In this document: positions 15,145-41,866 of the stretch, one piece after another
How the letters are laid out: every line of letters starts with the position of its first letter
Numbering within the stretch: position 1 is the stretch's first letter
Assembly: GCA_947588605.1 (NCBI GenBank)
Contig: CANPYK010000019.1
Span: 1-43,290 of the forward strand
Length of the DNA stretch: 43,290 nt
Reading direction: 5' to 3'
DNA from: an uncultured Oscillospiraceae bacterium
Lineage (GTDB): Bacteria; Bacillota; Clostridia; Oscillospirales; Oscillospiraceae
Translations under genes and position numbers: made by a program
Notes under the pieces: model-generated
Databases searched by the model: none
What the model saw: only the letters and a program-made list of their open reading frames with translations
Told to the model about the DNA's origin: nothing

Positions 15145-15321
15145 TTCTCGGAAAAGGCCGCTGGCCTTTTTCGAGAAGGGGGAACGTGCGGAAGATTCTT
15201 CTTGAATTTTGCGAAATTCAAGCAGAATCTTCCTGCCGTCACGGTTCGCGCACTCGCTTCGCTCGCACACTCACCGTGACAAAAGGTATTTTTTCCGACG
15301 TACATGCCGCCGGAAAAAATG
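15145..15321 (+). repeat. Multi-hairpin gene-end element, copy 1
   Basis: Starting 2 bases after the stop at 15142 are four hairpins. Hairpin 0 (15145-15177) is built around AAAAGGCC. GGGGAACGTGCG (15179-15190) follows. Hairpin 1 (15190-15233) has 19 of 20 pairs and loop TGCG. Hairpin 2 (15238-15280) is GTCACGGT/ACCGTGAC. AAAAGG comes next, then hairpin 3 (15289-15319), TTTTTTCCG/CGGAAAAAA. Copy 2 lies at 41683-41859 on the other strand; 34 bases around hairpin 3 are identical (15288-15321 against 41683-41716). No T run follows hairpin 1 here. The element fills the 215-base gap to the next gene. Confidence 0.8.
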
Positions 15322-15357
15322 CTCGATGGGAGTTTTTAGACAAACTGAGGTGGTCTT

Positions 15358-41616: not shown

Positions 41617-41645
41617 TTGACAAATTGCTCAATTTATGGTATAAT
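41617..41645 (+). promoter_or_regulatory. Consensus promoter without a gene, facing the multi-hairpin element
   Basis: TTGACA (41617-41622), 17-base spacer, TATAAT (41640-41645) with extended TGG. The nearest gene to the right is on the other strand. Confidence 0.6.
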
Positions 41646-41682: not shown

Positions 41683-41859
41683 CATTTTTTCCGGCGGCAT
41701 GTACGTCGGAAAAAATTCCTTTTGTTTTGCGGAGTGGGAAGCGTTGCGAGTGCGCGGAGCAAAACAGCAGAAAAAAATTTCGGAAATGTCCGCAGACATT
41801 TCCGAAATTTTTTTCGCACGTTCCCCTTGGCATTTGAAGGGCGCGAAGCGGCCTTCAAA
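41683..41859 (-). repeat. Multi-hairpin gene-end element, copy 2
   Basis: Read on the minus strand from the ABC stop at 41867: hairpin 0 (41833-41859), ATGCCAAGGGGAACGTGCG, hairpin 1 (41771-41814, 20 perfect pairs, loop TGCG), hairpin 2 (GTTTTGC/GCAAAAC, 41724-41765), AAAAGG, and hairpin 3 (identical to copy 1 over 34 bases). Hairpin 1 is flanked by A and T runs, so it also reads as a terminator on both strands. Confidence 0.8.
41771..41814 (-). terminator. Strong terminator of the ABC exporter gene (hairpin 1 of the element)
   Basis: Twenty perfect pairs with 7 A residues at one end and 7 T at the other and a 4-base loop. It should stop transcription of the ABC gene and, on the plus strand, of any transcript from 41617-41645. 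Confidence 0.8.
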
Positions 41860-41866
41860 GCCAGTT

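Follow-up and report, generated by a model that had tools for sequence, protein, structure and literature searches.

A dispersed multi-hairpin repeat of Oscillospiraceae, a probable non-autonomous partner of an IS1182-family transposase

Bacteria carry MITEs and composite repeats, of which pneumococcal BOX and RUP are examples; these are small, intergenic, non-coding and modular, and they fold into hairpins. The repeat family analyzed here shares these properties, but it differs from BOX and RUP in carrying a palindromic target duplication and in having stems that vary between copies with pairing kept. Among transposable elements, IS1272 and TnSha1, which belong to the IS1182 family and occur in staphylococci, target stem-loops, often terminators, with no sequence preference, and they are reported to delete or replace the stem-loop without duplicating the target (PMC5678879, PMC4923244). 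A hairpin-duplicating route is drawn there as a possible pathway for IS1272 (PMC5678879), and some members of the IS1182 family are said to target palindromes (Siguier et al. 2015, as cited in PMC5678879 and PMC4923244). The insertion sequence (IS) described below has the same transposase family and stem-loop targets. However, most of the repeats (21 of 32) and of the IS copies (7 of 8) have the whole stem-loop on each side, whereas IS1272 and TnSha1 are reported to lose it without duplication.

Template switching has been reported to correct hairpin arms and to invert loops (PMC8794818), and hairpin evolution of this kind, including multi-base compensatory changes, is described for RNA genes and yeast genes (PMC8794818, PMC8604942). 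Arms matched to each other, multi-base compensatory changes and inverted loops were also found here, but in a mobile repeat family. In the literature searched, with ISfinder and most subscription papers lying outside the search, we found no description of this repeat family or of a multi-hairpin non-autonomous partner of an IS1182-family element. We consider it probable, at roughly two in three, that the repeat is a non-autonomous MITE-like element of about 200 bp that depends on an IS1182-family DDE transposase, that its hairpin targets are recognized by structure, and that its stems change chiefly at the DNA level.

The two window copies and the repeat family

The window, that is, the whole stretch of 43,290 nucleotides that was analyzed, contains two copies of the element on opposite strands (Table 1). 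Re-reading of the coordinates bore out what the initial annotation had described, namely, the places and strands of the two copies, the order of the hairpins, the AAAAGG spacer, the stems, the length, loop and pairing of hairpin 1, and the 34 identical bases around hairpin 3 (15288–15321 and 41683–41716). When folded as single-stranded DNA, both copies were much more stable than 200 dinucleotide shuffles, with z scores of -7.0 for copy 1 and -7.1 for copy 2.

Table 1. Features of the two repeat copies in the window
Feature	Position	Strand	Description
Copy 1 hairpin 0	15145..15177	+	15-bp arms; altered left terminal repeat here is TTTTCTCGGAAAAGG
Copy 1 conserved box GGGGAACGTGCG	15179..15190	+	
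Copy 1 hairpin 1	15190..15233	+	44 nt, loop TGCG, 19/20 pairs
Copy 1 hairpin 2	15238..15280	+	stems GTCACGGT/ACCGTGAC, with GCGCACTCGC inside
Copy 1 hairpin 3	15289..15319	+	sequence-conserved part
Copy 1 right terminal repeat TTTTTAGACAAACTG	15333..15347	+	matches the IS right end at 15/16 bases
Copy 2 hairpin 0, type-B kind (CTGGC...TGCCAA)	41829..41862	-	begins a few bases 3' of a stop codon
Copy 2 conserved box GGGGAACGTGCG	41815..41826	-	
Copy 2 hairpin 1	41771..41814	-	44 nt, loop TGCG, 20/20 pairs
Copy 2 hairpin 2	41724..41765	-	stems GTTTTGC/GCAAAAC
Copy 2 hairpin 3	41685..41715	-	

Across the family, the element consists of hairpin 0, GGGGAACGTGCG, hairpin 1, CTGCTG, hairpin 2, CAAAAGG and hairpin 3, in this order. 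Hairpin 1 is 40–46 nt long with a loop that is mostly TGCG, the inner module of hairpin 2 is of several kinds, and hairpin 3 is conserved in sequence. Copies having both ends, with the right terminal repeat after hairpin 3 and a length of about 200 bp, were classified as type A, and those without the right repeat as type B. In unworn type-A copies, hairpin 0 overlaps the left terminal repeat CAGCCTGTCGAAAAAGG. The right terminal repeat was found in 9 of the 41 copies of the own genome (within 50 bases, with three mismatches allowed).

Copy 1 is probably a worn type-A copy. It extends beyond the end initially annotated to its right terminal repeat, and its left terminal repeat is altered, as is the hairpin-0 arm that pairs with it. 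In a relative (G016), the same insertion has lost internal sequence but retains CCTGTTGAAAAAA and the right end. Copy 2, which has no right terminal repeat within 50 bases past hairpin 3, is type B and on that feature was not assigned as a MITE of the IS1182-family IS.

A perfect match to a sigma-70 promoter (12/12, with TG) is located just past copy 2 at positions 41617–41645 (+) of the window and is directed back through copy 2, antisense to the gene that copy 2 follows. Inward promoter-like sites (one mismatch allowed) were found in 8 of the 160 elements with enough flank, and six of these eight, situated 38–41 bases from hairpin 3 and near-identical in sequence, are another repeat module.

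Searches of the own genome and its relatives were carried out with a query and with a hairpin-3 pattern, and revealed a dispersed family rather than just a pair. The 261-base query had at least 51 matches in the own genome (40 of 72 candidates scored, copy 2 not among them), a number that includes short pieces and hits of the palindromic hairpin 0 to itself. With as many as three mismatches allowed, the hairpin-3 pattern occurred at 51 places in the own genome, and its reversed control at none. This pattern was present in 23 of the 34 genomes of the genus, 21 of which had at least five copies (maximum, 106), and in 11 of a sample of 295 genomes from the order. Among these 11 were four members of a single genus in another family, each with 16–24 places, and a genome from a third family, with five. 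An exact-pattern scan of public genomes yielded at least 111 stretches; the titles among the matches listed were those of rabbit-gut and other uncultured Oscillospiraceae, together with one each of Eubacteriales, Clostridia, Dysosmobacter and Candidatus Oscillibacter. Copies from another genus of the family and from another family (L226/L246 and L219/L228) retain the hairpin order and the hairpin-3 sequence although their stems are quite different, which suggests some selection on the architecture and weighs against mutation as the sole explanation. Something keeps it, and mobility or a role at gene ends would do so.

The whole window had no Rfam match at the gathering threshold, and copy 1, searched at E values up to 10, hit only chance-like miRNA models, all far under their cut-offs. 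The initial annotation had recognized no known family in this element; this stands for Rfam but in part not for insertion elements, because many copies have IS1182-family ends.

Some copies deviate from the common plan. Long insertions rich in inverted repeats occur in the apical part of hairpin 2 in some of them (L037, L034 and L086), and L109 contains, near 1387, a rearranged chain in which a hairpin-2-like unit, a hairpin-3-like unit, a TGCG-loop hairpin and hairpin 3 stand in succession.

Terminal repeats and host hairpins

The terminal repeat pattern CAGYYTGTCRAAAAA occurred 22 times in the own genome with one mismatch allowed, including 12 exact occurrences, compared with two for the control. 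An exact inverted pair of this pattern, 1.5 kb apart (C8:19858 and 21353), flanks a transposase frame of 473 amino acids that matched the IS1182-family model NF033551 above its cut-off (E 5e-115) and also PF13751, PF05598 and PF01609. In a BLAST comparison of two type-A copies with this IS, the last 16 bases agreed in full, and no further shared stretch exceeded 10 bases; for copy 1, 15 of the 16 bases of the right end agree. We therefore rejected the idea that the repeat is a sequence derivative of the IS, since only the ends are in common. Type-A copies have several features of MITEs: they are short and transposase-free, their terminal inverted repeats are those of an autonomous element present alongside them in the genome, and many have a target duplication or an element-free site. 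The transposase is the putative mobilizer of type-A repeats in trans.

A PF13751 match was found in 12 of the 21 copy-rich genomes, defined as those with at least five hairpin-3 copies (one match below the cut-off), versus 2 of the 13 others (one a broken fragment); because the genomes are related, this association with copy number is suggestive only. The profile search gave no PF13751 match in the other nine copy-rich genomes, whose mobilizer may be missing, unassembled or something else. The terminal repeats of the IS leave 32 of the 41 own-genome copies unaccounted for, copy 2 included, and movement of type B by the same IS is not supported by terminal repeats.

Fragments with PF13751 similarity were observed at contig ends of the own genome (G000 C7, C16, C26, C40 and C44) and suggest additional near-identical IS copies that broke the assembly. 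The C16 fragment represents a different subgroup, and a search for its ends did not find them. The right terminal repeat TTTTTTGACAAACTG (e.g., window positions 15333–15347, and L014) contains TTGACA, a candidate -35 box reading outward.

Type-A copies were further examined for their flanks. A host hairpin of 19–35 bp was repeated on both sides in 21 of the 32 two-ended type-A copies, this set being the 33 rows obtained minus L060, an artefact with a negative element length. None of 992 mismatched flank pairings reached the repeat score (best 8; threshold 14). A perfect stem of at least eight pairs was present in 19 of the 21 flanking repeats, compared with 9 of 1050 shuffles. The remaining 11 of the 32 copies had no flanking hairpin repeat. 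Among IS copies with both ends, seven of eight lie between direct copies of a palindrome (L174, L176, L177, L181, L182, L209 and L210), and the exception, L178, carries a transposase fragment only. In this family the target is accordingly duplicated, in 21/32 repeats and 7/8 IS copies, rather than lost without duplication as in stem-loop replacement of the IS1272 type.

Orthologous sites free of the element were found to contain the hairpin once in three cases, L083 (for L101), L107 (for L134, itself outside the set of 32) and L166 (for L086). The element-free site L039, compared with L138, had no hairpin. Among the other site comparisons, L047 and L167 proved to be copies with partial deletions, divergence was too great for a clean call at L148, L109 and L155, and L048 gave no useful alignment. 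Outside the genus, flanking repeats of at least 12 bp, palindromic by eye, were detected in 4 of 20 copies (L228, L229, L230 and L246); none were detected in the copies from the other-family genus that were fetched among these 20.

Comparison of copies and sites thus established the common terminal repeats, the whole host hairpin on both sides and the single hairpin at three element-free sites. The ends shared with the IS and the host hairpins flanking both repeats and IS suggest a non-autonomous element of a structure-directed transposon that is IS1272-like but target-duplicating. The transposase would select hairpins, mostly terminator-type palindromes just 3' of genes, by structure and not by sequence. 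It may join the element at both feet of an extruded hairpin (cruciform), in which case repair would copy the whole hairpin, as in the 'pathway b' possibility outlined for IS1272 in PMC5678879. If this duplication model is true, the flanking hairpins were identical at insertion, so that later loop flips and substitutions could be counted directly. With dozens of copies per genome, the family is a natural experiment on the selection and copying of folded targets by a DDE transposase.

Palindromes that are intergenic and present in many copies are also what REP-like elements moved by a RAYT/Y1 tyrosine transposase would look like. Duplication of the whole target hairpin and the presence of inverted terminal repeats are instead consistent with a DDE element, and Y1_Tnp (PF01797) had no match in the own genome, with the control matching in 5 of 14 genomes. 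For this genome, a REP/RAYT origin is thus extremely improbable and was rejected.

Stem covariation and exchange of hairpins

Covariation was measured by pair counts against shuffles and slid controls. In 46 distinct 42-nt sequences of hairpin 1, 96.6% of 874 cells were paired, and two-sided changes were found at 17 of the 19 pairs. The covariation score was 0.707, compared with 0.230 in shuffles (above all 500) and at most 0.279 in slid controls. Of 178 elements, hairpin 1 was parsed in 111, the 67 with unreadable boundaries or symmetry being excluded, which may inflate the perfection of the following counts: the 111 hairpins contained 2143 pairs, comprising 2076 Watson-Crick pairs, 21 G-U pairs (about 1%) and 46 mismatches, and 66 hairpins were perfect.

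Nearest-neighbor comparisons (73 pairs) revealed 73 two-sided Watson-Crick changes, including 24 transversions, for which no passage through G-U is possible. The same comparisons contained 52 other changes, of which 20 were one-sided to G-U and 24 one-sided to mismatch. G-U accounted for 21 of 67 mispairs in the 111 hairpins and 20 of 44 in the nearest neighbors, whereas the unconstrained expectation is 17–38% for a transition bias of 1–6. This share is at or somewhat above the expectation, so that some tolerance of G-U is compatible with the data.

Loop inversions are a more telling sign of template switching than G-U counts. The loop was reverse-complemented between the two flanking repeats in 2 of the 21 target duplications (L087 and L149). 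Within the element, the loop of hairpin 1 was inverted in 1 of 111 cases (L019, CGCA, with arms as in L011 and L021), and that of hairpin 0 was inverted between L067 and L125.

Eleven orthologous copy pairs were aligned, and a hairpin-by-hairpin comparison was possible in five. In L070/L139, whose flanks are 97% and 91% identical, hairpins 0 and 3 are common and hairpins 1 and 2 are unrelated. Hairpins 1 and 2 also differ in L027/L145 and L019/L202. L067/L125 have hairpin 1 in common and differ in hairpin 2, and L038/L161 have hairpins 1 and 2 in common and differ in a second hairpin 0. The remaining pairs had lost or different parts (L036/L114, L039/L138, L043/L088, L088/L110, L109/L155 and L109/L064). 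The arms of L019 hairpin 1 are also found in L011, L021 and L028 of the same genome, indicating that donors exist. Independent shuffling of hairpins was not taken as support, because the four-way-combination test gave 0 of 60 for hairpin 1 versus hairpin 2, that is, no independent shuffling, and 7 of 18 for hairpin 0 versus hairpin 2.

The strong covariation of hairpin 1 is what a dispersed structured RNA, acting in 3'-UTRs or as a regulator and covarying through a selected RNA fold, would show. This explanation also agrees with the conservation of the 0-1-2-3 order and of the hairpin-3 sequence across other genera and families, where the stems differ, and with the location of many copies without the right repeat directly 3' of a stop codon on the gene's strand (33/51). 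However, G-U pairs are rare and not in excess over mismatches, whole stems are replaced at the same locus between close relatives, loops are inverted, target duplications and element-free sites indicate mobile DNA, and Rfam contains no match. We regard a structured RNA as unlikely. The initial annotation had left the choice between selection on structure and a copying process that rebuilds palindromes: the covariation itself was confirmed, rebuilding appears to explain it at least as well as selection in view of the rare G-U, transversions, loop inversions and stem swaps, and some selection on the architecture is supported by the order conserved across families.

Selection on RNA fits these observations no better than DNA template switching combined with module exchange. 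Template switching within a hairpin would copy a change made in one arm into its partner arm and occasionally flip the loop, and exchange among dispersed copies would swap whole hairpins at conserved junctions. Selection for several hairpins probably also acts; the retained hairpins may serve mobility or stand in for the host terminator. A more radical possibility, to which we give little weight, is that the hairpins are interchangeable cassettes, in that the transposase would recognize the cruciforms of host and element alike and duplicate, replace or flip them, producing a self-rearranging chain that is kept paired by template switching and persists across several families.

Under the preferred reading of a non-autonomous element with stems changing chiefly in DNA, the family is also a natural experiment on whether compensatory stem changes, usually taken as proof of selection on RNA, can stem from DNA template switching. 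It is also a caution against inferring a functional RNA from strong covariation when the sequence is a dispersed repeat.

Type-B copies and gene ends

Type-B copies lie nearer to the stop codon of the upstream gene than type-A copies do. Of those with an upstream gene, 33 of 51 have their start between -12 and +2 bases relative to the stop codon and share the gene's strand; hairpin-0 starts are approximate in these distances, and the type-B set includes worn type-A copies. Of the type-A copies, 6 of 22 begin within this range and the other 16 begin 20–56 bases away, which leaves room for a duplicated hairpin. At the L016 site, the position taken by a type-B element in the own genome is occupied in a relative (G021) by a hairpin that resembles a terminator and has a T run. 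By analogy with IS1272, this is a hint, no more, of hairpin replacement.

The adjacency to stop codons and the L016 site would also suit a terminator-like or insulating repeat, retained because it substitutes for or repairs host terminators at the ends of genes. Hairpin 1 of copy 2, and hairpin 3 in antisense, fit a loose terminator pattern. On the other hand, copy 1 has no terminator-like site in sense orientation, one site was found in all versus 0.5 expected, no T run follows hairpin 0, and the replaced hairpin is a single example, with L025 giving no such picture. We judge a terminator-like role as the reason for the repeat to be distinctly improbable. Type B as a simple terminator replacement was likewise not adopted: one site supports it (L016/G021), L025 was uninformative, and at L019 the relative also has an element, with other stems.

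Past hairpin 3, type-B copies (e.g., L036, L039 and L027) are followed by further repeated palindromic modules, GCCCCTCCTAGG..., AACCTCCCCC... and GGGCGGGTTTGGAACCCGCCC, so that these intergenic regions resemble mosaics of hairpins.
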